A DNA stretch of 20,750 bases from a virus. Below, one piece after another: positions 4,656 to 20,289 of this stretch. The notes beneath the pieces are model-generated. The model searched no databases. It had not been told where the DNA came from and worked only from the letters and a program-made list of their open reading frames with translations. Both the position numbers and the translations under genes were made by a program. Location: positions 1 through 20,750 of IMG/VR virus record IMGVR_UViG_3300022074_000465. One strand, written 5' to 3'. The stretch's first letter is position 1; the number at the start of each line of letters is the position of its first letter.

Positions 4656-4852
4656 TGGCTAAAACCGTCTTTGACGTGCTTAAAGAAAAAATCGAAGAAG
4701 AAATAACTTCTGCAGAAGAATTTCTTAGTGGCGGGGGAGCAAGAGACTTTTCCCAATACAAAGAAACAACTGGTTTGATACGGGGTCTTCAAATTAGTTT
4801 ATCGTACATAGAAGACCTCTCGCGCAATAACATGGAAGATGACAATGACTGA
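4655..4852 (+). CDS. small conserved phage protein between portal and co-chaperonin
   Basis: A 65-residue acidic, mostly helical protein. The first half (KTVFDVLKEKIEEEITSAEE) would form a charged helix, and GLIRGLQISLSYIEDL a second. A Gly-rich turn SGGGARD lies between them, and the C-terminus is acidic (MEDDND). There is no signal peptide or membrane segment. It starts with a TAATG junction at the portal stop and overlaps the GroES-like gene. I recall similar short proteins at this place in marine phages but know no function. Its fixed place between portal and scaffold genes suggests a minor head or assembly role. Confidence 0.65.
   Translation: MAKTVFDVLKEKIEEEITSAEEFLSGGGARDFSQYKETTGLIRGLQISLSYIEDLSRNNMEDDND
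4834..4838 (+). promoter_or_regulatory. ribosome-binding site deciding the co-chaperonin start
   Basis: GGAAG at 4834-4838 touches the first in-frame ATG (4839) but lies 6 bases before the second (4845). Normal spacing therefore favours 4845 as the start of the GroES-like gene. The site sits inside the end of the preceding gene, linking translation of the two. Confidence 0.5.
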
Positions 4853-5231
4853 ATCAGTAAAATTAGTACAAGATAATACAACGGAAGAAGAGCTTGATGT
4901 TCAACTTCCTGTACCTGTTGGGTATAGAGTTTTAATAGCTATGCCTGAAATTGAAGAAACCTACACGGACACAAAAATCCTAAAGACTAAAACTGTTATG
5001 CACCAAGAACATATCATGTCTATTATTGGACTGGTGCTTGATATGGGTAGTCAAGCTTATACAGACAAAGAACGGTTTGGAGACAAACCTTGGTGTAAAG
5101 TAGGCGACTATGTAATGTTTCGTGCCAATACTGGTACGCGATTTAAAGTCGGTGATATTGAATATCGTTTAATGAACGACGATTCAATAGAAGCTGTGGT
5201 TACTGATCCTCGCGGTGTAGCGAGAGCATAA
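4845..5231 (+). CDS. phage GroES-like co-chaperonin
   Basis: Probable cap for the host GroEL ring, letting the host chaperonin fold phage proteins, as T4 gp31 does for its capsid protein. The 128 residues (130 if ATG 4839 is used) fit the GroES layout after a 20-residue leader: a PVGYRVLIAMPE strand at about 24-35, matching the PLHDRVIVK strand of GroES; a mobile-loop region at about 38-58 holding KIL, comparable to the GroEL-binding IVL; GLVLDMG at 62-68, like the GEVLAVG strand; KVGDYVMF at 85-92, the hallmark GroES strand; and a final strand pair ending in DDSIEAVV, like ESDILAIV. It lies between portal and scaffold genes, so the client is likely a structural protein. Position 32 in the alignment lacks the usual R/K repertoire, but the fold pattern is clear. 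Confidence 0.82.
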   Translation: MTESVKLVQDNTTEEELDVQLPVPVGYRVLIAMPEIEETYTDTKILKTKTVMHQEHIMSIIGLVLDMGSQAYTDKERFGDKPWCKVGDYVMFRANTGTRFKVGDIEYRLMNDDSIEAVVTDPRGVARA

Positions 5232-7415: not shown

Positions 7416-8324
7416 ATGGCAATATCCCGCGCACAACTTCTTAAAGAACTACTTCCTGGCCTTAACGCACTCTTCGGTTTAGAGTATGCTAAGTACGGTG
7501 AGGAACATGCAGAAATTTTTGAATCAGAAACTTCTGACCGTTCATTTGAAGAAGAAACCAAGCTGAGTGGCTTCTCAGCTGCACCTGTTAAAGACGAAGG
7601 CTCTGCCATCGAATATGACAATGCACAAGAAGCTTTTACGTCACGATATAACCACGAAACAGTGGCAATGGGTTTTTCAATTACTGAAGAAGCTATTGAG
7701 GATAACCTGTATGACTCATTGTCATCTCGTTATACTAAAGCACTAGCTCGTGCTATGGCGTATACAAAACAAGTAAAGGCAGCTTCTATATTGAACAATG
7801 CCTTTGATTCAGGTACTACTTATGGAGATGGAGTGGAACTCTGTTCTACTGCACACCCTCTAGTTTCAGGTGGTACTAACTCAAACGAACCAGCAACTGC
7901 TGCTGACTTGAATGAAACTTCTCTTGAAGCTGCTGTCATTCAAATCGCAAGTTGGACAGACGAGCGTGGCTTACTAATAGCTTCAAAACCTCGTAAGTTG
8001 GTTATCCCACCGAATTTACAGTTTGTGGCAACTAGATTGCTAGAGACTGAAGGACGTGTGGGAACCGCAGATAACGATCTGAATGCAATCCGTAACAACG
8101 GTGCAATTCCAGAGGGTTATACTGTTAACCACTATCTAACAGATACTGACGCATGGTTCTTAATGACAGACGTTCCAAATGGTCTAAAGCATTTCACACG
8201 TAGTCCAATGGCTACTTCAATGGATGCTGACTTTGATACAGGTAACAGTCGTTACAAAGCCAGAGAGAGATATTCTTTCGGTGTATCAGACCCGTTAGGA
8301 ATCTTTGGCTCCCCAGGAGCATAA
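7416..8324 (+). CDS. major capsid protein
   Basis: Main shell protein, expected HK97 fold. The 302 residues begin MAISRAQLLKELLPGLNALF, an N-terminal helix typical of one marine-phage capsid family. Next come an acidic segment, then GFSITEEAIEDNLYD (spine-helix region), a helical RYTKALARAMAYTKQVKAAS, the loop STAHPLVSGGTNSN, and the C-terminal RYKARERYSFGVSDPLGIFG. The last motif and the HPL loop recall Mu gpT-type head subunits, but the subfamily is uncertain. The N-terminus shows no long delta domain, consistent with a separate scaffold gene. It has the best ribosome-binding site in the window and a terminator straight after it, both signs of a highly expressed structural gene. Confidence 0.88.
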   Translation: MAISRAQLLKELLPGLNALFGLEYAKYGEEHAEIFESETSDRSFEEETKLSGFSAAPVKDEGSAIEYDNAQEAFTSRYNHETVAMGFSITEEAIEDNLYDSLSSRYTKALARAMAYTKQVKAASILNNAFDSGTTYGDGVELCSTAHPLVSGGTNSNEPATAADLNETSLEAAVIQIASWTDERGLLIASKPRKLVIPPNLQFVATRLLETEGRVGTADNDLNAIRNNGAIPEGYTVNHYLTDTDAWFLMTDVPNGLKHFTRSPMATSMDADFDTGNSRYKARERYSFGVSDPLGIFGSPGA

Positions 8325-9345: not shown

Positions 9346-9948
9346 ATGGGACTCTCAGATGTTAAGGTTCTTACAATAAGTGATGAAAATGCAGCAGATG
9401 CAGATAGGTTAGTTACAGCAGCTAGGCCGAACACTGGCGCAACAATGGCAAATACCACGTTTGCAGGTGGGGCTGCTAGAAATGTTACAGTAACAACTGC
9501 AGGAACTGGCGATAACGCTAAGACTAATACTATTGTAGGAACAGATGTTTTTGGTAATGCTCTTACTGAAGTTATAACTTCAACAGGTTCTGCAGAAGCC
9601 GTAGCAGGTACAAAATTATTCTTGACGGTTACTTCTGTAACAAGTTCAACGCAGTTTGCTGCTAATATTACAGTTGGTTCAGGCTCTTTGTGCGCTCAAG
9701 CTATTGAAGGAAGTAACCGTGTAAGATTAAAAGGTATGTCAATTACATCTGGTGGGACAGCAGGAGATGTAGAGTTTGTAGATGGCTCTCCTGAAGATGG
9801 TACAACTTTGTTTAAATCTAGGACTATAGGCACTGCTAATACTGTTATTGATAGAACTATACCCGCAGAAGGTGTTTTGTTTGCTAGTGGTTTAGTGATT
9901 AAGTACACACTAGATACCACTGACATGACAACAATATTTTATGCGTAA
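9346..9948 (+). CDS. beta-rich virion protein (putative)
   Basis: A 200-residue protein rich in T, A, G, S and V. Visible elements are an N-terminal LSDVKVLTISDENAADADR, paired strands RNVTVTTAGTGDNAKTNTIV and TDVFGNALTEVITSTGSAEA, and a C-terminal strand GLVIKYTLDTTDMTTIFYA ending on aromatic residues, as many phage structural proteins do. There are no cysteine pairs, signal or membrane segment; its single Cys is near the middle. AGGAGA lies 5 bases before the ATG. Together with the preceding protein it resembles paired virion proteins downstream of the capsid gene in marine phages. Exact role unknown; decoration, head completion or head fibre are options. Confidence 0.66.
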   Translation: MGLSDVKVLTISDENAADADRLVTAARPNTGATMANTTFAGGAARNVTVTTAGTGDNAKTNTIVGTDVFGNALTEVITSTGSAEAVAGTKLFLTVTSVTSSTQFAANITVGSGSLCAQAIEGSNRVRLKGMSITSGGTAGDVEFVDGSPEDGTTLFKSRTIGTANTVIDRTIPAEGVLFASGLVIKYTLDTTDMTTIFYA

Positions 9949-10255
9949 CGACTACAAAAAAGGCGGGCGAGTTCGTAAAGGCAAAGGCATGAAAGGTATG
10001 TCTATTAGTAGTGGTGACAAACGCCCTACTAAGTCTGGCGCGGGCATGACGGCTAAAGGTGTAGCTAAGTATAGAAGAAATAACCCTGGGTCAAAACTCA
10101 AGACAGCTGTTACAGAAGATAAGCCCACGGGTAAGAGAGCATCTAGGAGAAAGTCATATTGCGCTCGTTCAGCAGGGCAAATGAAGAAGTTCCCTAAAGC
10201 AGCAAAAGACCCTAACAGTCGTTTACGGCAAGCAAGAAGAAGGTGGAAGTGTTAA
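9941..10255 (+). CDS. small, very basic phage protein (DUF6321-like)
   Basis: A 104-residue protein with a strong positive charge. The N-terminus is KKGGRVRKGKGMKGMS. The body has a conserved-looking core, GAGMTAKGVAKYRRNNPGSK then TEDKPTGKRASRRKSYCARS (residues 33-77), and the end is RQARRRWKC. It has two cysteines (74 and 104). I recall this core, a conserved GL/MTxKGxxKYxxxNPGS plus TGKRAxRRKSxCAR, as a widespread phage domain of unknown function, possibly DUF6321. The charge suggests nucleic-acid contact, perhaps with packaged DNA. It overlaps the previous gene by 8 bases and ends in a TAATG junction with the next, and it opens the run of small basic genes. Confidence 0.74.
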   Translation: MRNDYKKGGRVRKGKGMKGMSISSGDKRPTKSGAGMTAKGVAKYRRNNPGSKLKTAVTEDKPTGKRASRRKSYCARSAGQMKKFPKAAKDPNSRLRQARRRWKC

Positions 10256-10500
10256 TGGCTAGTAAAAAACAACTACAAAATGATATTATTAGGTTAGAAC
10301 GTCTTATGGACGCAGATATTGTCGCAAGAGGCGGTAAATTTGGAGATGAAAGTGTTAGAGATAAACTAGAATCCGCATATGTTCGCTATTCAGATAAATA
10401 TGGTAAATCTTTTGGAAGAGGTAAAGAATACTCTAGTGGTGGCAAAGTCCGTGGCATGGGTGCAGCTACGCAAGGTGGTAAATTTACGAGGAATGGTTAA
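10255..10500 (+). CDS. small basic protein with Gly/Arg C-terminal motif
   Basis: An 81-residue protein. I chose ATG 10255 (TAATG with the previous stop, preceded by AAGGTGGAAG) over an in-frame GTG at 10243, because the latter lies inside the previous gene without a good site. Residues 1-60 form a charged helix pair (QLQNDIIRLERLMDADIVAR, then DKLESAYVRYSDKYGK). The C-terminus changes to a basic glycine-rich tail, SSGGKVRGMGAATQGGKF, which resembles the tail GGKVRGAGIAKKGVR of the gene at 11289. No enzyme motif is present. Function unknown; the shared tail links it to the cluster. Confidence 0.66.
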   Translation: MASKKQLQNDIIRLERLMDADIVARGGKFGDESVRDKLESAYVRYSDKYGKSFGRGKEYSSGGKVRGMGAATQGGKFTRNG

Positions 10501-10631
10501 TGACTATATCCCGCGCACAAATGGGTAAACAAATAATGAACCCACCTAATAAACTATCAAAACTCTCACAGAAGAGAAAAAAGGTGGCAAACAAGGGGAG
10601 AAAAAAGAAGGATGGCGTACCTACAAAGTAA
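10500..10631 (+). CDS. 43-residue basic protein
   Basis: A very short gene, starting in a TAATG junction at the previous stop and overlapping the next gene by 20 bases. It begins MTISRAQMGKQIMNPPNK and ends in a Lys/Arg-rich tail (QKRKKVANKGRKKK followed by DGVPTK). I recall short marine-phage proteins of the form SRxQMxxQIxxPP followed by lysines, which supports it being real. The first residues resemble the capsid protein start (ISRAQ), and 15 bases are identical. Function unknown. The continuous TAATG/overlap chain on both sides supports translation despite its size. Confidence 0.6.
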   Translation: MTISRAQMGKQIMNPPNKLSKLSQKRKKVANKGRKKKDGVPTK

Positions 10632-11292
10632 CATACCCTATTTTAAAGCATGGGTTCGCAGAGAGTACACGAAGAATTTAGAGGATTATCACGGAGAATT
10701 TTTACACGCTATGGTAGTCGCAGTAACAACAATGCCGAACAGGACTCTCAGTTTCCAAGTTATATTTACTGGGTGTGAGTCAGATAATACGGATGATCCT
10801 AATGTTCATGGTGGAGCTATGTGGGCAAGGATGCCTTTAACGGCTCTCGTTGCTGATGTAGCCTATGAAGAATGGCCTACGGAACTTCCCCCCTATATAG
10901 CACAACCTTGGGATTGTATGTCTCATAATCATTCTGTTTATAAAATAGAAAGAGCTTCACCTGCCCCTTGGATAGCTAAAGTTGATGGGGAGTTCTTCCC
11001 TGCTAAATACTATTTCACGGTGGATTATACAGATAGTGAAGTAGCTGACGATCCTGCTCAACATAAACAAAGTCATGTGCTTGAATTATTAGACGCAGGA
11101 GAGTATACTGGTAATATTGTTGCTCTACCTAACAATAGAGTTCGGGTTACACACCCTGCGTGGTTTGAAACAGGTGAAGGCGCACCAGACTTTAGACCAA
11201 ATCAACACACTTTCAATTCAAAAGAAGACGTGTCTTATGTCTGGGACACTGATCGTGTTTTCAATAATTTATATAAGGAGACAGACGAATGA
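10612..11292 (+). CDS. conserved marine-phage protein of unknown function (226 aa)
   Basis: A highly distinctive protein. It starts MAYLQSNIPYFKAWVRREYT, continues with MPNRTLSFQVIFTGCESDN and HGGAMWARMPLTALVAD, then QPWDCMSHNHSVY, FFPAKYYFTVDYTDSEVADD, and DAGEYTGNIVALPNNRVRVT. I have met close relatives in marine phage genomes, always as an unnamed protein, and the segments look strongly conserved. It is rich in Trp, Tyr, Asp and Pro, appears to be a folded mixed alpha/beta protein, and shows no known active-site motif; His/Cys/Asp residues (WDCMSHNH, HKQSH) could bind metal. No signal or TM segment. It differs from its neighbours by being acidic and globular, and its stop overlaps the start of the next gene as ATGA. 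AGG touches the ATG and GGGGAG lies 11 bases upstream. Confidence 0.72.
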   Translation: MAYLQSNIPYFKAWVRREYTKNLEDYHGEFLHAMVVAVTTMPNRTLSFQVIFTGCESDNTDDPNVHGGAMWARMPLTALVADVAYEEWPTELPPYIAQPWDCMSHNHSVYKIERASPAPWIAKVDGEFFPAKYYFTVDYTDSEVADDPAQHKQSHVLELLDAGEYTGNIVALPNNRVRVTHPAWFETGEGAPDFRPNQHTFNSKEDVSYVWDTDRVFNNLYKETDE

Positions 11293-11630
11293 AGAAGATG
11301 AAGAAAAAAGGTTACGCTAAAGGTAAAACGGTTAAACCTGACTTTTTAGATATTGATAAAGATGGTGATACAACTGAGTCAATGAAAGCAGCTTCAGGTA
11401 AAAAAGCTGGCGGTATGATGAAGAAAAAGAGTTATGCCAAAGGTAAAATGGTCAAAGGCGCTGCTAAAGGTGGCATGATGAAGAAAAAAGGCATGGCTGC
11501 AGGTGGCATGATGAAGAAAAAAGGCATGGCTAAAGGTGGCATGATGAAGAAAAAAGGCATGGCTAAAGGTGGTAAAGTGCGTGGCGCAGGTATAGCTAAA
11601 AAAGGTGTAAGACCTACAAAGATGAGGTAG
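11289..11630 (+). CDS. Lys/Met/Gly repeat protein with EF-hand-like loop
   Basis: A 113-residue protein. The first 16 residues are KKMKKKGYAKGKTVK-like. Residues 17-32 contain an acidic DFLDIDKDGDTTESM segment whose D21, D23, D25-G26 and D27 resemble the first half of a calcium-binding EF-hand/dockerin loop, although position 12 is Met. Then follow tandem units GGMMKKKGMAKG of 11 residues (three perfect to near-perfect at residues 61-93 and a degenerate one at 41-51). The last 20 residues, GGKVRGAGIAKKGVRPTKMR, form a basic tail shared with other small genes here. It is extremely positive, and nucleic acid or capsid-interior binding is plausible but unproven. The start overlaps the upstream stop (ATGA). 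I recall marine phages with similar KKGMAKGG repeat proteins, unnamed. Confidence 0.7.
   Translation: MKKMKKKGYAKGKTVKPDFLDIDKDGDTTESMKAASGKKAGGMMKKKSYAKGKMVKGAAKGGMMKKKGMAAGGMMKKKGMAKGGMMKKKGMAKGGKVRGAGIAKKGVRPTKMR
11469..11567 (+). repeat. three tandem 33-nt coding repeats
   Basis: Three adjacent 33-base units at 11469-11501, 11502-11534 and 11535-11567 encode GGMMKKKGMA followed by A or K. The copies differ only in the last codon (GCA in the first, AAA in the others). A diverged copy sits at 11409-11441 with other codons. The near-perfect nucleotide identity points to recent slippage or unequal crossover, and copy number may vary between phages. Confidence 0.9.
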
Positions 11631-11632
11631 AT

Positions 11633-11797
11633 ATGCGTAGATATTATAAATCTGGGGGTAAGATTTGTCCTAAAGGTAAATCGTGGGCGAAACGAACTTT
11701 TGACACTTACCCCAGCGCGTATGCTAATATGGCTGCGTCTAAATATTGCAAAGACCCAAATTATGCTAAAGGTAGTAAAAAGAAGAAGAAAAGCTAA
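11633..11797 (+). CDS. 54-residue basic protein with two cysteines
   Basis: Begins 3 bases after the previous stop and ends in a TAATG junction with the next gene. It reads MRRYYKSGGKICPKGKSWAK, then RTFDTYPSAYANMAASKYCK, and ends in a lysine run. C12 and C39 flank a predicted helix rich in aromatic and small residues. The CPxGKxxAKxxFxxYPSAYAN pattern is one I know from many short marine-phage proteins, including those of cyanophages, so it is very probably a real, conserved gene with unknown function. A zinc or disulfide link between the cysteines is possible. Confidence 0.7.
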   Translation: MRRYYKSGGKICPKGKSWAKRTFDTYPSAYANMAASKYCKDPNYAKGSKKKKKS

Positions 11798-12066
11798 TGG
11801 GTGAGCTTAAAGATTGGGTAAAACAAGATTGGGTTCGTATTGGTACGGACGGCAAGATAAAAGGTAAATGCGGTACTTCTAAAGATAAGAAGAATCCCGA
11901 CAGGTGTTTGCCAAGAAGTAAAGCTAACAGTCTTAGCCAATCACAAAGAGCGACTACGGCTAAGAAAAAGAAGCGAGCAGGAGCAAAAGGAAAAACGGTG
12001 GTAAAAAATACAAAACCTGCTACAGTACGTTTAGCACATGGCGGTTTAGCTAGGAGAAGAAGATGA
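11797..12066 (+). CDS. small basic phage protein, WVRIGTDGKIKG family
   Basis: An 89-residue protein. Residues 1-45 hold the distinctive LKDWVKQDWVRIGTDGKIKG, with CGTSK at 25-29 and NPDRCLP at 33-39. After this the protein is Lys/Arg/Ala-rich (SQSQRATTAKKKKRAGAKGK) and ends AHGGLARRRR, the same GGLAR element as the next protein. C25 and C37 could form a small metal or disulfide unit. I recall this first domain as a widespread small viral domain, possibly DUF5872, with a role not established. Junctions on both sides are TAATG and ATGA, so it is tightly coupled to its neighbours. Confidence 0.7.
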   Translation: MGELKDWVKQDWVRIGTDGKIKGKCGTSKDKKNPDRCLPRSKANSLSQSQRATTAKKKKRAGAKGKTVVKNTKPATVRLAHGGLARRRR

Positions 12067-12266
12067 CTGATAGAGAAAAAGAGTTAAGAGAAGAGTACTT
12101 TGATGGCCCAGCTTCTGACAGTATGAGTCTAAAACAATTTTTTCTATCAAAAGGTTTTAACCCTGACAAGTTTAGAGAGGGTGGTTTAGCGCGAGGTAAA
12201 CGAAGTATTGCTAGAGGGTGTGGCGCTATTATGGAAAAAAGACGTAAGAAAACTTTATACACTTAG
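12063..12266 (+). CDS. small protein with conserved ARGCGAIM C-terminal motif
   Basis: A 67-residue protein overlapping its predecessor by 4 bases (ATGA). The first 35 residues are acidic and helical (REKELREEYFDGPASDSMSL, then KQFFLSKGFNP). The C-terminal half switches to a basic motif EGGLARGKRSIARGCGAIM followed by EKRRKKTLYT. I recall the ARGCGAVMxxRRKxT ending at the tail of several marine-phage small proteins, a sign that it is a transferable motif. One cysteine (C53) lies in that motif. No enzyme motif. Function unknown. Confidence 0.66.
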   Translation: MTDREKELREEYFDGPASDSMSLKQFFLSKGFNPDKFREGGLARGKRSIARGCGAIMEKRRKKTLYT

Positions 12267-12275
12267 GAGACAATT

Positions 12276-12581
12276 ATGGCAAAACTAGAAATTATTTACG
12301 CTAAAGATGATGAAAGGGGTAATTCTCGTTATCACATTGGCTCTTACGATAGCAACGGTACTTTAACTATTGTAGACCCAAAATTAAGAAAACATCATAG
12401 AGCTTTAACAATTCTTGCGGAACTATCAGGTAAAAAAGATACTTCTGACGCTCCTAAATATAAAAACATGACTAAGAAAGAGTTAGAAGAAACTATGAGA
12501 ACTCATGGTATTGAGCTAGACAGGAGAAAAAGTAAATCTGTTCTGTTAAAAGAAGTAGAAACGTTTTTCGGAGCAAAATAA
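12276..12581 (+). CDS. small protein with C-terminal LEM/HeH- or SAP-like helix pair
   Basis: A 101-residue protein. Residues 1-55 look like a small beta-rich domain (AKLEIIYAKDDERGNSRYHI, then GSYDSNGTLTIVD). Residues 62-101 (YKNMTKKELEETMRTHGIEL followed by DRRKSKSVLLKEVETFF) match the pattern of the phage HeH/LEM or SAP helix-extended-helix fold: a helix starting MTKKELE, a turn with a Gly-Ile, a basic patch, and a second helix LLKEVE. Such folds bind DNA or proteins and are common at the ends of phage structural proteins. AGGAGA lies 5 bases before the ATG. It sits at the border between the small basic genes and the adaptors. Domain call from pattern only. Confidence 0.62.
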   Translation: MAKLEIIYAKDDERGNSRYHIGSYDSNGTLTIVDPKLRKHHRALTILAELSGKKDTSDAPKYKNMTKKELEETMRTHGIELDRRKSKSVLLKEVETFFGAK

Positions 12582-12584
12582 CTT

Positions 12585-13268
12585 ATGGCTACTTCAGGAA
12601 CTACAGCATTTGATATGGACTTCACGGAGATCGCTGAAGAAGCTTGGGAACGTGCAGGACGTGAAATGCGTTCAGGCTATGATCTACGTACTGCTCGTAG
12701 GTCTATGAATCTTTTAACGATAGAATGGCAAAATCGTGGGCTTAATCTATGGACAATAGATGAGCAAACAGTGTCCATTACATCAGGCACTTCTCAATAT
12801 ACTTTAGCTTCAGATACAATAGACGTATTAGATCAAGTCATAAGAGAAAATTCTGGAAATACTTCTACTCAATCTGATCTCACCATAAGTCGTATTGGTG
12901 TAAGTACTTACGCTACCATCCCTAACAAGTTAACACAAGGTAGGCCAATTCAAGTTTGGATAGAAAGACTTCGCGCTGCGCCTAGAATTAATCTGTGGCC
13001 TGTGCCTAACAAAAGTTTTACTTTCGTGTATTGGAGAGCCAGAAGAGTAGAAGATGCTGGTAGCGGTGTAGAAACAGCGGATATGAACTTTAGATTTTTA
13101 CCCTGTTTAGTAGCAGGATTAGCTTATTATATTGCTATGAAAACGCCCGAATTAGCCGAGCGTGTAACTATGTTGAAAACAATTTACGAAGAGCAGTATA
13201 GCCTTGCTGCAGGAGAAGACAGAGATAAAACGTCTGAACATTTTGTACCAAGAGTAGGAAGGATATGA
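12585..13268 (+). CDS. head-tail adaptor (P22 gp4/T7 gp11-like, putative)
   Basis: A 227-residue protein likely to form the ring joining portal and tail. The N-terminal helical domain FTEIAEEAWERAGREMRSGY then LRTARRSMNLLTIEWQNRGL (about 13-53) is followed by a strand region TIDEQTVSITSGTSQYTLAS, then a beta insert with RLRAAPRINLWPVPNKSFTF, and C-terminal helices with LVAGLAYYIAMKTPELAERV. The N-terminal helix pair, the IEWQNRGLNLWTI segment and a WPVP-type loop are features I associate with podovirus adaptor/tail-accessory proteins. It overlaps the zinc-ribbon gene by 4 bases. The order, just ahead of the second adaptor, supports a connector role. The exact family (P22 gp4-like or T7 gp11-like) is not settled. 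Confidence 0.7.
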   Translation: MATSGTTAFDMDFTEIAEEAWERAGREMRSGYDLRTARRSMNLLTIEWQNRGLNLWTIDEQTVSITSGTSQYTLASDTIDVLDQVIRENSGNTSTQSDLTISRIGVSTYATIPNKLTQGRPIQVWIERLRAAPRINLWPVPNKSFTFVYWRARRVEDAGSGVETADMNFRFLPCLVAGLAYYIAMKTPELAERVTMLKTIYEEQYSLAAGEDRDKTSEHFVPRVGRI

Positions 13269-14721: not shown

Positions 14722-17700
14722 ATGGCAAGTACTTTCGAGAATGACCTTCGGCTAGAAGAGATAGGGACAGGCGAACAATCAGGAACCTGGGGCGCTACTA
14801 CAAATACTAACATGGAGTTGATCGCAGAGGCTTTTAGTTATGGCACAGAGGCGATTACAACAAACGCAGATACTCACGCAACAGTAGTAGCAGACGGTGC
14901 AACAGACGAAGGGCGTTCTATGTACTTAAAGTACACAGGCGCATTAGATTCTACTTGCACAATAACAATATCAGCAGGGTCTGCAGGGACTTTTACATTA
15001 TCGAAAGTTTGGTTAATTGAAAATGCTACCACTGGGGGGCAATCTATAATTATAACTTCAGGGTCTGGCGCTAGCATAACTATCGCTAATGGACAAGTTA
15101 AGATGGTTGCTACTGATGGAGCAGGGTCTGGCGGGATTGTTTATGATTTGCTCCAAGACCTAGCTGTACCTGATTTGTTTGTAGATGATGACCTAACTTT
15201 ACAGTCTGATGGGGCAGTACTTGGTTTTGGCGAAGATACAGATGTAACTCTCACGCACGTAGAAGACACAGGGTTGCTGTTAAACGCTGCTATGAAGGTA
15301 CAATTTAGAGATTCTGCTATATCAATTAGTTCTAGTGCTGACGCTACATTAGATTTAGCAGCAGATGGAGACATAAACCTCACGGCTGGAGTAGACATAA
15401 ATATTCCAGCAGATGTTGGACTAACCTTTGGTAATGATGGCGAGAAGATAGAAGGTGACGGCACAGACCTCACTATCGCAGGTAACAACATTAATCTTAC
15501 CGCTGTAGAAGACGTGAACATACCATCAGGTGTTGGACTTACCTTTGCAACTGCAGAAAAAATAGAATCAGATGGCACTGATCTTTCTATAACTGTAGGT
15601 TCAGGTGGGGATATAAATATTCCTGCTAATATCGGATTAACCTTTGGTGATGATGGTGAGAAGATTGAAGGTGACGGTACTGATCTTACTATATCAGGCA
15701 ATAACATTAATCTTACAGCTGTAGAAGACGTTGTCGTACCCGCTAACGTGGGCATTACCTTTGGAACTGGTGAGAAGATAGAAGGTGATAACACTGACCT
15801 TACCATAACTTCTGGGGCTAAAATTAACCTAGCTGCCAACTCAGATGTACATTTAGCCAACAATATAGGAATGGTATTTGGAGATGCTGGTGAAAAGATA
15901 GAAGGTGATGGCACTAATCTTGCAATTAACTCTTCAGGTGATGTTAATATTACAGCTACAACTGTTGACCTTAACGGTAATTTAGAAGTCTCAGGCACGA
16001 TCACACTGGGTTCTGGCGCAGTAATATCTGAAGCCGAGCTAGAGTTGTTAGACGACGTTACTGCTGGTACAGCAATCGCTTCTAAAGTGGTTACTACAGA
16101 TGCAAATATAGATACAACAGGACAAAGAAACCTCACCATTACAGGCGAGCTAGACGCAGCTACGGGTGACTTCTCTGGCGCAGTGGACATAGCAGGTGAC
16201 TTAACATTGTCTGCAGGGGCTGATGGGGCTTTAAACTTCAGCGCAGCAAGTTCAGTTAAGATACTAGACAATAATGCTGCATCTTTAGTGTTTGAAGAAG
16301 CTGACAACGCTTACATGACGTTTGTTACAACAAATAGCTCTGAAGAAGTCCAGTTTGACGTAAACGTAGATTTAAACGGTGATCTTGATGTGTCTGGCAC
16401 AGGGCTAGTTACAGGTGTCCTGACCACTACAGCTACACAGGTGGCAACTGGTGGAATTACAAGTGGTTCAAATATTGTTTCTGATACAGACAGCACTGAT
16501 GATCTCGGTACAAACAGTGTTCGTTGGGCTAACTTGTATGTTGATGGTATTACTGCAACTGATCAAATAACAGCTACTGGATTTACTGGTACGTTAGATG
16601 GTATTCTTGGGTCTGGCTCTGCTGCTGCAGCAACTGTAACAACTCTTGATTCAAGCGGTGCTGTTAACTTAAATCTTACTACTGACTCAACTAGCTCAAC
16701 TTCAGGTGCTTTGATTGTTGACGGAGGAGTTGGCATAGCTAAGAAGTTGTTTGTTGGTACAGACTTAGTTGTTTCAGGCGATTTAACGGTATCTGGTGAC
16801 GATATTACTATGGGTACAAACACTTCTGGTAATTTGTTAGTAGCAGATGGCACAAACTTTAATAGTATAGCTGTAAGTTCCTTGTCCGAGATTAGCACCG
16901 CTGCAGATAATGACGTGCTTATAGCAATAGATACGTCAGGTGGTGGGCTAAAGAAAATTACTAGAAGTGCTATTATTGCTGGTACTGGGTCAAGTGGAGA
17001 CTTAGCGAATGTTGTTGAGGATACAAGTCCTCAGTTAGGCGCGAACCTAGACACTAACAGCCACAATATACTTATAGATGACGCACATTTTATAGGTGAT
17101 GAAAACGGTAATGAGCAGATAATATTTCAAACTACGTCATCTGCTGTTAATCAGTTTGACATAACAAATGCTGCAACAGGTAACGCACCTGAGATATCTG
17201 CAACGGGTGGTGACACTAATATTAGTTTAAAGATAACACCAAAAGGAACTGGTCAAGTCTTAATAGATGGTAATGTTGGTATTGAATCAGGGCTAATTGA
17301 CTTAAAAAATGCAGGTACAGTATCACAAATAAAATTTTATTGTGAAAGCTCAAATGCTCATGCACAAACACTCCAAAGCGCACCACACTCAGAGAGTGCT
17401 TCAAATACTTTAACACTACCTAGCACTGGTGGTAATGTTAATTTAGTTTCAACAGCTTCAACTGCTACTCTTACAAACAAAGGATTTGGGGATAACGTAA
17501 GTTTTGGTGATAACAACATTACTAATGTAGGAGACATTGCGTTAGATTCTATCAGCGCAGATGCTACAGATATTAATGTAGCCGTAAGTGACAATTCTGC
17601 AACGGCTCTTACAATCAAACAAGGATCAGATGCTTACCTTATTATAGACACTGCAAACTCAAGTGAGTCTGTTTCTATAGGTACAGGTATATCAGGAACC

Positions 17701-20289
17701 GCTATAGTTATAGGGCATAGCACTTCAGAAACAACTGTTTCAGATAATTTAACAGTTACAGGCGATCTTACAGTTAATGGTACGACAACTACTATAGCAA
17801 CTACTAATTTAACTGTCACCGACCATTTAATAAAATTGGGACAGACGTATACAGGAAGCGCAAATGATCAAGGCATAATTATTACTCGTGGTGATGGATC
17901 AGATAGTAATACAGCTAATAGAGGTTTTATTTGGGATGAATCTGCAGACGAATTTGCCACCGTGTTTGCTAACACAGAAGCAGGGACTACTACAGGTAAC
18001 GTATCCATAGATGATTATGCAGATATACATGTAGGTAAAATAACAGCAGATGACGCATCGACGTTTTCTGGCGCTGTTACAGCAGCAGCTCTAACAGTAG
18101 ATGATGTAGCTGTAAACGGCAAAGTCATTACGATGACAGGCTCTAGCAGTGATACCGCTGTGTTTACAGTAGGTACAAATGGTACGTTAAGTATTGTAAC
18201 AACAGATGCTGCAGCTGCAGCTGCGAACATTCAAATTACAGCAGATGGCACAGCAGAGCTTGCAGGTACTACAGTTACACTAGACTCTGCTGGAGACATA
18301 GAACTAGAAGCTACAAATGATATAAATATCCCCGCTAATGTTGGTTTAACTTTTGGTACTGGTGAAAAGATAGAAGGCGATAGCACTGATTTAACTATAA
18401 CGTCTGGAAATAAAATTAATTTAACAGCAACTACAGATGTACATCTTCCAAATGATGTAGGCATAGTTTTTGGCGATGCTGGCGAGAAGATTGAGGGTGA
18501 CGGTACAGATTTAACTATATCAGGTAATAAAATTAATTTAGCAGCAGCTACAGATGTAGTTATTCCTGCTGACGTGGGTATTACTTTTGGTACTGGTGAA
18601 AAGATAGAAGGCGATAGCACTGATTTAACTATAACGTCTGGGAATAAAATTAATTTAACAGCAACTACAGATGTACATCTTCCAAATGATGTAGGAATGG
18701 TGTTTGGAGATGCAGGTGAAAAGATTGAGGGTGATGGTACTAATTTAACTGTAGCTAGTTCTAATAACCTCACTTTAGATGTTGCTAATGACCTAACTTT
18801 AGATGTTGAAGGTAATATTGAGATTAATGCAAATGGTGGCACAATTACATTCAAAGACGCTAGTGCTTCTCTTGGAACTATTACTTCTTCAGGATACTCA
18901 GGACTTGCTGGAACAGCTACAGCACTAGCAACAGCAAGAACTATTGGTGGAGTATCTTTTGATGGTAGTGCTAACATCAATCTACCTGGAGTTAACACTG
19001 GTGGTAATCAAAACACTACAGGTTCAGCAGCAACTTTGACAACTGCAAGAACTATTAACGGAACATCATTTGACGGTTCAGCAAACATTACTTTAGGTAC
19101 TGGGTCAGTTACTCATGCCATGCTTGCAGGAGATGCAGTTGATGGCGATAATATAGCAGATGATTCGGTTAATTCAGAACATTACGTAAATGGTTCTATT
19201 GATACAGCACATATAGCAGATTCACAAATTACTGTTGGTAAGATGGCAGCTAACTCTGTTGACTCGAACCAATATGTAGATGGTTCTATTGATACAGCAC
19301 ACATTGCTGATAATCAAGTTACGCTTGCTAAAATGGCAGGACTTGCTAGAGGTAAGATTATTTATGGAAACTCTAGTGGAGATCCTGCAGCACTTTCTAT
19401 AGGTAGTAATGGAACAGTGTTAAAATCAGATGGCACAGACATATCTTGGGGGACTATTGCTTCAGGTGTTGCAGCAGATGATATTACAGCGGGGGATTCA
19501 AATGTAGAAATTAGCACAAGTAGTGGCACAATTACTATTGATGCAAAAACGTATACAAAATTCGAATATAATAATACTTTAATAGGTGAATTTGGGTATT
19601 CGTCTGGCGCTGGCTATTCTTACTTAAATGTTGGTACCTCCACAGCAAACTCAAACGGTTACATCGGGCTTGGAACGGGTCAAGTTGGGTTTTTTGCTGC
19701 TACTACTGGGTCAACCGTAGTATGTAGGTCTGGTGGCACTCCATTTTATGTAGATAGACTAGCAAGTGATGGTAGTTTAATAGATTTTTATCAACAAGGT
19801 AGTGGTGAAGGGTCAATCTCAGTCAGTGGGTCAACGGTATCGTACAATGGTTTTTCTGGTCTACACGAAAGCTCTGGCATTTCTGATGATATAGCAGTTG
19901 GTACTGTTGTTAGTACAATAGATGAGCTTGATGTTTATTCTGATACAATTCTAGATGTTGAGGGGGAAATTAAGGTTAATAGTAAAAAAGGTCGAACAAG
20001 GGCAGACCACGCTAAGATTAAAGTATCAGATACAGAAGGCGACAAAAGAGTTTATGGCGTACTTCAAAGATATGATGATAATGGAAAACCTTTAGTAGCA
20101 TCAGTAGGGATTGGCTCTATTAAAGTTACTGGTGCTTGTGAAGGTGGAGATTTGCTCGAAAGTAATGGTGATGGCACCGCTAAAGTACAGTCTGATGATG
20201 TTATTAGGAGTAAAACTATAGGTAAAGTAACGATTAGTAATAACACAACTAGTGTAAAGCTTGTGTCTTGTGTTTTATATTGTGGATAA
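14722..20289 (+). CDS. giant repeat-built tail fibre / receptor-binding protein
   Basis: An 1855-residue protein likely to form a trimeric fibre contacting the host. The N-terminus (MASTFENDLRLEEIGTGEQS, then GTWGATTNTNMELIAEAF) is the virion-anchoring type common in marine phages. Residues about 234-420 and 1207-1362 hold two blocks of a 39-residue repeat with core GEKIEGDGTDLTI plus NKINLTA, suggesting a beta-solenoid shaft. The centre has shorter beta motifs such as LTVSGD and LTVTGDLTVNGTTT (about 1010-1025). Another repeat, GSIDTAHIAD, occurs twice near residues 1491 and 1521. The final 125 residues (RVYGVLQRYDDNGKP, GDLLESNGDGTAKVQSDDVI, KLVSCVLYCG) are a conserved fibre C-terminal domain, perhaps a trimerisation or chaperone unit. 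It starts after AAAGG (14709-14713). No catalytic depolymerase motif was seen. Confidence 0.85.
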   Translation: MASTFENDLRLEEIGTGEQSGTWGATTNTNMELIAEAFSYGTEAITTNADTHATVVADGATDEGRSMYLKYTGALDSTCTITISAGSAGTFTLSKVWLIENATTGGQSIIITSGSGASITIANGQVKMVATDGAGSGGIVYDLLQDLAVPDLFVDDDLTLQSDGAVLGFGEDTDVTLTHVEDTGLLLNAAMKVQFRDSAISISSSADATLDLAADGDINLTAGVDINIPADVGLTFGNDGEKIEGDGTDLTIAGNNINLTAVEDVNIPSGVGLTFATAEKIESDGTDLSITVGSGGDINIPANIGLTFGDDGEKIEGDGTDLTISGNNINLTAVEDVVVPANVGITFGTGEKIEGDNTDLTITSGAKINLAANSDVHLANNIGMVFGDAGEKIEGDGTNLAINSSGDVNITATTVDLNGNLEVSGTITLGSGAVISEAELELLDDVTAGTAIASKVVTTDANIDTTGQRNLTITGELDAATGDFSGAVDIAGDLTLSAGADGALNFSAASSVKILDNNAASLVFEEADNAYMTFVTTNSSEEVQFDVNVDLNGDLDVSGTGLVTGVLTTTATQVATGGITSGSNIVSDTDSTDDLGTNSVRWANLYVDGITATDQITATGFTGTLDGILGSGSAAAATVTTLDSSGAVNLNLTTDSTSSTSGALIVDGGVGIAKKLFVGTDLVVSGDLTVSGDDITMGTNTSGNLLVADGTNFNSIAVSSLSEISTAADNDVLIAIDTSGGGLKKITRSAIIAGTGSSGDLANVVEDTSPQLGANLDTNSHNILIDDAHFIGDENGNEQIIFQTTSSAVNQFDITNAATGNAPEISATGGDTNISLKITPKGTGQVLIDGNVGIESGLIDLKNAGTVSQIKFYCESSNAHAQTLQSAPHSESASNTLTLPSTGGNVNLVSTASTATLTNKGFGDNVSFGDNNITNVGDIALDSISADATDINVAVSDNSATALTIKQGSDAYLIIDTANSSESVSIGTGISGTAIVIGHSTSETTVSDNLTVTGDLTVNGTTTTIATTNLTVTDHLIKLGQTYTGSANDQGIIITRGDGSDSNTANRGFIWDESADEFATVFANTEAGTTTGNVSIDDYADIHVGKITADDASTFSGAVTAAALTVDDVAVNGKVITMTGSSSDTAVFTVGTNGTLSIVTTDAAAAAANIQITADGTAELAGTTVTLDSAGDIELEATNDINIPANVGLTFGTGEKIEGDSTDLTITSGNKINLTATTDVHLPNDVGIVFGDAGEKIEGDGTDLTISGNKINLAAATDVVIPADVGITFGTGEKIEGDSTDLTITSGNKINLTATTDVHLPNDVGMVFGDAGEKIEGDGTNLTVASSNNLTLDVANDLTLDVEGNIEINANGGTITFKDASASLGTITSSGYSGLAGTATALATARTIGGVSFDGSANINLPGVNTGGNQNTTGSAATLTTARTINGTSFDGSANITLGTGSVTHAMLAGDAVDGDNIADDSVNSEHYVNGSIDTAHIADSQITVGKMAANSVDSNQYVDGSIDTAHIADNQVTLAKMAGLARGKIIYGNSSGDPAALSIGSNGTVLKSDGTDISWGTIASGVAADDITAGDSNVEISTSSGTITIDAKTYTKFEYNNTLIGEFGYSSGAGYSYLNVGTSTANSNGYIGLGTGQVGFFAATTGSTVVCRSGGTPFYVDRLASDGSLIDFYQQGSGEGSISVSGSTVSYNGFSGLHESSGISDDIAVGTVVSTIDELDVYSDTILDVEGEIKVNSKKGRTRADHAKIKVSDTEGDKRVYGVLQRYDDNGKPLVASVGIGSIKVTGACEGGDLLESNGDGTAKVQSDDVIRSKTIGKVTISNNTTSVKLVSCVLYCG
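15415..15980 (+). repeat. five in-frame 39-residue repeats, 5' block
   Basis: Five copies of a unit with core GEKIEGDxTDLTI occur around 15439, 15541, 15631, 15748 and 15865. The last three are exactly 117 bases apart. The amino acids are conserved but the DNA differs by many synonymous changes, so the copies are old. The second copy is shortened and lacks the Gly before EKIE. They form the front part of the fibre shaft. Confidence 0.8.
18334..18808 (+). repeat. four in-frame 39-residue repeats, 3' block with recent 234-nt duplication
   Basis: Copies at about 18340, 18457, 18574 and 18691 are 117 bases apart and alternate between two types (FGTGEKIEGD and FGDAGEKIEGD). Bases 18349-18461 and 18583-18695, 234 apart, are identical except at one position (18408/18642), so the two-unit block was copied recently. 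The block is related to the 5' block 3 kb upstream. Confidence 0.88.
19162..19341 (+). repeat. two 30-residue repeats in the fibre
   Basis: The segment NSEHYVNGSIDTAHIADSQI and its copy DSNQYVDGSIDTAHIADNQV lie 90 bases apart (GGT of the shared core at 19192 and 19282). The repeats sit near the distal end and may form a spacer before the C-terminal domain. Limits are approximate. Confidence 0.7.

Follow-up and report, generated by a model that had tools for sequence, protein, structure and literature searches.

Why would several small phage proteins, encoded side by side and otherwise unrelated, end in the same short peptide? The question is raised by a gene cluster at positions 9941-12266 of IMGVR_UViG_3300022074_000465, an IMG/VR virus record that we analyzed over its entire 20,750 bases (the window) and whose genes include those for terminase, portal, GroES, capsid, adaptor, and fiber. 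The capsid protein shares 64-71% identity with its counterparts in HTVC027P, HTVC023P, and Pag-Yong1, which places the window phage among the HTVC023P/Pam1-like marine podoviruses, the window being a head/neck gene module of such a phage, with the cluster between capsid-side proteins and the adaptor. The original prediction described highly basic small proteins with a shared C-terminal tail. Its open reading frames (ORFs), coordinates, and tails were as given, and the small genes and the 226-residue protein among them stood, but the count of seven genes, six of them small, did not: there are eight genes, seven for proteins of 43-113 residues and one for a protein of 226 residues, and neighbors overlap or abut, with ATGA/TAATG junctions at 10255, 10500, 11289, 11797, and 12063 (Table 1; genes are named by their first position). 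Basicity is also uneven, with 17 Lys/Arg vs. 10 Asp/Glu in the 10255 protein and 16 vs. 10 in the 12063 protein. What we regard as virtually certain is the descriptive result set out below, that the tails are a terminal and shared feature of such proteins.

The tail group has the core RGxG[AI][AV]. The consensus is RGMGAATxGGxF for tail C (10255 gene), GGKVRGAGIAxKGVRPxKM for tail A (11289 gene), GGLARxKRSIARGCGAxMxxRRKxT for tail B (12063 gene), and RGTGAATKGxxARGPM for tail D. We scored the window tails with hidden Markov models (HMMs) trained on other loci, using 2000 shuffles as a control and quoting the best shuffled score. The 11289 tail reached 46.0 bits on the A model (best shuffle 15.4), the 12063 tail 45.9 bits on the B model (11.1), and the 10255 tail 29.8 bits on the C model (8.4), so the resemblance exceeds that of random basic sequences. 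Since the C tail of the 10255 protein also beat its shuffles on the D model (14.5 bits vs. 10.1) and the A model (12.0 vs. 11.5), tails A, C, and D seem to be versions of a single motif. The 12063 B tail did not rise above shuffles on the A, C, and D models; B is linked to the other tails by the RGxG core and by hybrids such as RGCGIAVRGVKPTKMR (L159). Relatives of the 11797 protein continue ...VRLNGGGLARKRRDVARGCGAVQESRRKKTLYI where the window has GGLARRRR, which is the start of a B tail, here truncated. The predicted repeated tail is therefore a shared motif but not a single sequence: A, C, and D are related, B is distinct, and one copy is truncated. Under the tail HMMs, the 9941, 10500, and 11633 proteins have no such tail. 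At L113-L116 and L120, a 12063-type body carries another conserved end, GFSQLPExVQQKMNPDLAAKYKHGGLVPKRKV, possibly a further tail class.

How strictly terminal are these peptides? We scanned IMG/VR with amino-acid patterns, back-translated and free of any positional constraint, and counted unique proteins among the matches listed. Tail A was C-terminal in 123 of 123 proteins, tail B in 152 of 153, and tail C in 77 of 110, nearly all remaining C matches being N-terminal, right after the start Met, and beginning MAGRGMGAATRGGG; at L497, the motif occupies both protein ends. For the generic motif RGxG[AIVS]A (n = 351), 330 matches were C-terminal, 18 N-terminal, and 3 internal. In a sample of 45 contigs of at least 9 kb, picked solely via the 226-residue neighbor gene regardless of tails, 18 loci held one to four tail genes each, with 35/35 tails C-terminal and 0 antisense; the reversed-sequence control gave 1. 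Tailed proteins are thus common in related genomes, where their absence would have refuted the prediction. When the tail A pattern was searched in 257 Gb of cellular genomes, we obtained two chance matches, neither of them a protein end. Among isolate phages, tblastn with the short tails returned almost nothing, probably owing to the filtering of low-complexity sequence and to the length of the queries, and tails were found by a direct motif scan of the records. HTVC023P has tails RGVGAA and RGGGAA, with RGGGAAVRGMGFKGVF in gp51, RGFGAA in gp53, and RGVGAAIRGHKFIGVK in gp32 (its gp43 is a DUF6321 protein); DSL-LC04 has one N-terminal tail; and an unannotated ORF of phage 023Pt_psg01 (L520:2654-2851) joins a YPSAYAN body to a B tail (IARGCGKVMSNRRKKTKIA). 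No tails were seen in the stretches examined of HTVC027P, CRP-902, Pag-Yong1, and C75C1.

The tails are restricted to one phage lineage and, within it, to the gene block from portal to neck. Core head/neck families were present in 263 of 271 tail loci, in the same orientation as the tail genes. Where a locus had both a capsid and an adaptor gene (88 loci), tail genes lay between the two in 105 cases and outside in 28 (n = 133). Of 48 placed cases of tail D, 47 lay between the adaptor/Zn-ribbon genes and the 13622 gene; tail C also occurs near the portal gene.

The bodies to which the tails are attached are highly diverse. Without tails, they fell into 63 mutually unalignable clusters (blastp, E 1e-3), a rough count because Lys/Gly repeats over-merge some, including the largest (209). 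This bears out the idea that the same tail sits on otherwise unrelated short proteins, implying a shared target. Bodies and tails also change partners: the 12063 body is found ending in tail B, in tail A at L200, and in an unrelated sequence at L113-L116. It is the 11797 protein itself that carries the B tail in L002 and its relatives. The window has two copies of a 24-bp direct repeat, encoding the tail start, that flank a body of ~117 bp, so one event, fission or insertion at the tail, split or fused the 11797/12063 genes, in either direction. Median net charge per residue was +0.20 in tailed proteins vs. -0.01 in others. LysM domains were found in four distinct tail-C proteins, and all LysM ORFs in the loci but one are tailed. 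LysM proteins ending in tail C within the head gene block are seen at L406, L413, L492, L505, and L516, and the L413 and L516 genes abut the 226-residue gene on the same side as the window's tail-C gene. EF-hand/dockerin-like loops (e.g., DLTGDGKVTQADVLKGRGV) occur in 39 of 568 tailed proteins vs. 29 of 6919 others, related contigs among them not being independent.

Selection acts on the peptide, not on the DNA: positions that never vary are encoded by many different codons, and conservation extends to residues beyond the scanned core. In tail A, 5 codons encode invariant Arg, 4 Gly, and 4 Ala, and in tail B, 6 encode Arg; across tails, five or six codons are used for invariant Arg and mostly four for invariant Gly and Ala. 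On this synonymous variation, we rejected the idea that tails are DNA elements. Beyond the core, tail A conserves R10 (93%), K13 (97%), and M14 (89%), and tail B conserves K11 (96%) and T13 (96%). Similarity between A tails was slightly raised within genomes (0.865 vs. 0.812; 52/5000 resamples), a comparison in which related contigs are not independent and from which we do not claim partner coevolution.

The cluster also holds companions of the tailed proteins. The 9941 protein is a member of DUF6321 (51.6 bits; gathering cut-off 28.5), a family matched by 344 phage records; its AlphaFold2 (AF2) model is helical (predicted local distance difference test, pLDDT, 80.5), and searches by sequence and by fold found no DUF6321 relative in the PDB. 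In T4-like cyanophages, DUF6321 ends proteins of 427-490 residues in the terminase region. S-CREM2 ORF137, which was detected in the virion proteome (PMC10665884 Table 3), ends in DUF6321; the P-SCSP1u and P-SSP7 papers had no proteome text on the family. The 11633 and 11797 proteins of the window have no Pfam match to DUF5872 (PF19197), and their relatives score 19-21 bits (cut-off 27.5) with the two halves matched in order: a DSL-LC04 protein related to 11633 matches DUF5872 1-39 (E 1e-3) and a relative of 11797 matches 53-109 (E 5e-4), both below cut-off. HTVC023P gp51 matches PHROG 27331, as does the 11633 protein. P-TIM68 gp097 (L170:2948-4231) has an 11797-like stretch near its N terminus, recognized by eye, and DUF6321 at its C terminus; since one chain joins both, there is a hint that these modules may work together. 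Because the 9941, 11633, and 11797 proteins fall in, or look like, families that are already catalogued (function unknown), the cluster as a whole is not the undescribed system that had been proposed. The tail peptides look undescribed.

What might the tails do? Since they are terminal, recur within a genome on basic proteins of unrelated sequence, and are confined to head genes, the most natural reading is that they label proteins for docking to one assembling structure. Our leading but tentative reading, to which we give a little less than an even chance, is that RGxG-type tails are terminal tags for capsid targeting, carried by hypervariable proteins that are probably packaged in the virion, and work in the manner of the capsid targeting sequence (CTS) of the T4 internal proteins. 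The cluster would be the variable cargo region of the podovirus head module, its tails serving, several per genome, as short docking tags on unrelated small basic proteins. The tag would bind a single part of the head under assembly, be it scaffold 5242, the portal, the capsid protein, or the adaptor; variable cargo would co-assemble into the procapsid, stay with the DNA via its Lys/Arg-rich bodies, and be ejected at infection. Peptidoglycan-binding LysM cargo would fit action in the cell envelope, and DUF6321 with the two DUF5872-like half-proteins may accompany the cargo in the same compartment as a set found more widely. With somewhat greater reserve, we propose that this widespread marine podovirus lineage has a terminal address tag that is transferable, undescribed, and independent of the T4 CTS, with which it loads hypervariable cargo into its capsid and delivers it to the host. 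Of the targets initially suggested (packaged DNA, capsid interior, or a host factor), the virion/capsid fares best, given the slots in the head-neck block and the DUF6321 relative in a virion proteome.

Several points weigh against capsid targeting. No tailed protein has so far been detected in a virion, and we found no virion proteome of this phage lineage. No tag-cleaving protease stood out among the annotated window genes, although no search aimed at one was made. What the codon and slot data show is that a peptide encoded by late head genes is under selection; they do not show encapsidation. The virion-proteome support comes from the DUF6321 protein of a T4-like phage (4 peptides, 4% coverage), and the window's DUF6321 protein has no RGxG tail; S-SZBM1_190, considered as a second virion DUF6321 protein, was rejected since it contains no DUF6321. 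Some tails are N-terminal, and because strict tails are absent from 27 of the 45 loci chosen regardless of tails, the tag is accessory.

The alternatives account for parts of the same evidence. The RG- and Lys/Arg-rich sequence, the strongly basic bodies, and the head-gene context would suit nucleic-acid-binding ends that act on phage DNA (condensation, packaging) or RNA without a dedicated protein partner; we find this unlikely, since conservation is sequence specific and extends beyond the scanned core, same-composition shuffles do not score, and simple charge binding needs neither a terminus nor fixed variants. Slightly less probable again is a role for the tails in docking small assembly factors (scaffold helpers, neck/portal chaperones) that act in head maturation and are absent from the final particle. 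The slots do adjoin portal, GroES, capsid, and adaptor genes, and tail D is nearly always between the Zn-ribbon gene and the 13622 gene, but hypervariable bodies and tails missing in many relatives are unlike assembly factors, and LysM bodies make little sense in the cytoplasm. We give poor odds to tails that bind a conserved host protein (e.g., ribosome, RNA polymerase) and so aim late host-takeover proteins, for while the bodies are accessory, hypervariable, and several per genome, the tails are limited to the head-neck block of one lineage and tail A has no genuine cellular match. That the tails are repeats prone to recombination, or selfish linkers, with no function as peptides, is suggested by tail DNA flanking a body insertion/deletion with a 24-bp repeat and is scarcely credible, being already contradicted by residues that stay fixed while synonymous codons vary freely and by the preserved reading frame and terminal position.

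Table 1. Features of the small-gene cluster and its landmarks in the window
Feature	Position	Strand	Basis or remark
Tail C GGKVRGMGAATQGGKFTRNG	10438..10497	+	C-tail HMM, pattern scan
Tail A GGKVRGAGIAKKGVRPTKMR	11568..11627	+	A-tail HMM, pattern scan
Tail B, truncated: GGLARRRR	12040..12063	+	Aligns with full B tail start in L002, L001, L254, L019, L021
Tail B GGLARGKRSIARGCGAIMEKRRKKTLYT	12180..12263	+	B-tail HMM, pattern scan
DUF6321 protein, 104 residues	9941..10255	+	SYCARSxGQMKK...SRLRQARRRWKC reaching very C terminus; Pfam PF19846
Basic protein, 81 residues, tail C at end	10255..10500	+	ORF list, C-tail HMM
Lys-rich protein, 43 residues, without tail	10500..10631	+	ORF list, tail HMMs
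Conserved acidic protein, 226 residues, landmark between small-gene slots	10612..11292	+	PHROG 3704, E 1e-28
113-residue protein, GGMMKKKGMAK repeats, tail A at end	11289..11630	+	ORF list, tail HMMs
54-residue module CPKGKSWAKRTFDTYPSAYANMAASKYC	11633..11797	+	PHROG 27331, E 8e-26; resembles N-terminal half of DUF5872
89-residue module WVRIGTDGKIKGKCG...DRCLP, truncated B tail at end	11797..12066	+	PHROG 23735, E 4e-27; resembles C-terminal half of DUF5872
67-residue protein, body MTDREKELREEYFDGPASDSMSLKQFFLSKGF, tail B at end	12063..12266	+	ORF list, body comparison
Major capsid protein	7416..8324	+	Upstream landmark of slot region; identity to HTVC027P, HTVC023P, Pag-Yong1 as in text
Head-tail adaptor	12585..13268	+	Downstream landmark; Pfam SU10_adaptor, E 8e-11

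Among the other products, the 10255 protein matched no family in Pfam and PHROG searches, and no gene matched the anti-phage defense models of PADLOC. The 226-residue 10612 protein has at least 600 relatives in IMG/VR; the "ferredoxin" label of its PHROG is doubtful, and its AF2 model (pLDDT 48) is too poor for use. HTVC023P gp44 (L160:11649-12293), annotated as PurM, aligns to it at 29% identity, so that annotation looks wrong. Elsewhere in the window, a phage-encoded GroES-like co-chaperonin (4839-5231), conserved in the lineage, lies between the portal and scaffold genes. The last ~45 residues of a small protein (12276-12581) weakly match the PHROGs endonuclease VII, Arc-like repressor, and prohead protease inhibitor, and are possibly a small helical nucleic-acid-binding motif. 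A repetitive fiber-like protein of 1855 residues (14722-20289) has recurring units IPANVGLTFGxxGEKIEGDGTDLTI.

If capsid targeting is correct, 1) many unannotated small genes of very common ocean phages would become a recognizable class, candidate virion cargo, 2) there would be a sequence handle for injected anti-host or counter-defense proteins in SAR11-type phages, and 3) a small tag would be at hand for loading proteins into phage heads. Mechanism aside, that ~63 unalignable bodies have one peptide in common is a sign of a conserved partner, which experiments could find.

How do these proteins compare with known systems? DUF6321, to which the 9941 protein belongs, is widespread in cyano- and pelagiphages and often C-terminal in larger proteins, but lacks the RGxG tail and occurs in phages without tags. 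Relatives of the 11633/11797 proteins resemble DUF5872, but here the halves are two adjacent genes. P22/T7-type ejection proteins are likewise podovirus head-module proteins, and the LysM bodies would fit a similar action in the envelope; ejection proteins are larger and, to our knowledge, do not share a peptide tag, and the window's small genes matched no P22-type ejection protein in Pfam or PHROG searches. In T4, the CTS is N-terminal and is cleaved by the gp21 protease. The T4 internal proteins are highly diverse, their only common feature being a short conserved targeting sequence, and their lysines contact packaged DNA (PMC3012670). Unlike the CTS, to which they have no sequence relation, the window tails and 330 of the 351 motif proteins are C-terminal and come in several variants, on putative virion proteins. 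With its C-terminal position and a sequence of no relation to the CTS, the tail system is not a member of the T4 family, and yet, as with IPI, IPII, and IPIII, a conserved short terminal peptide is found here too on unrelated bodies.

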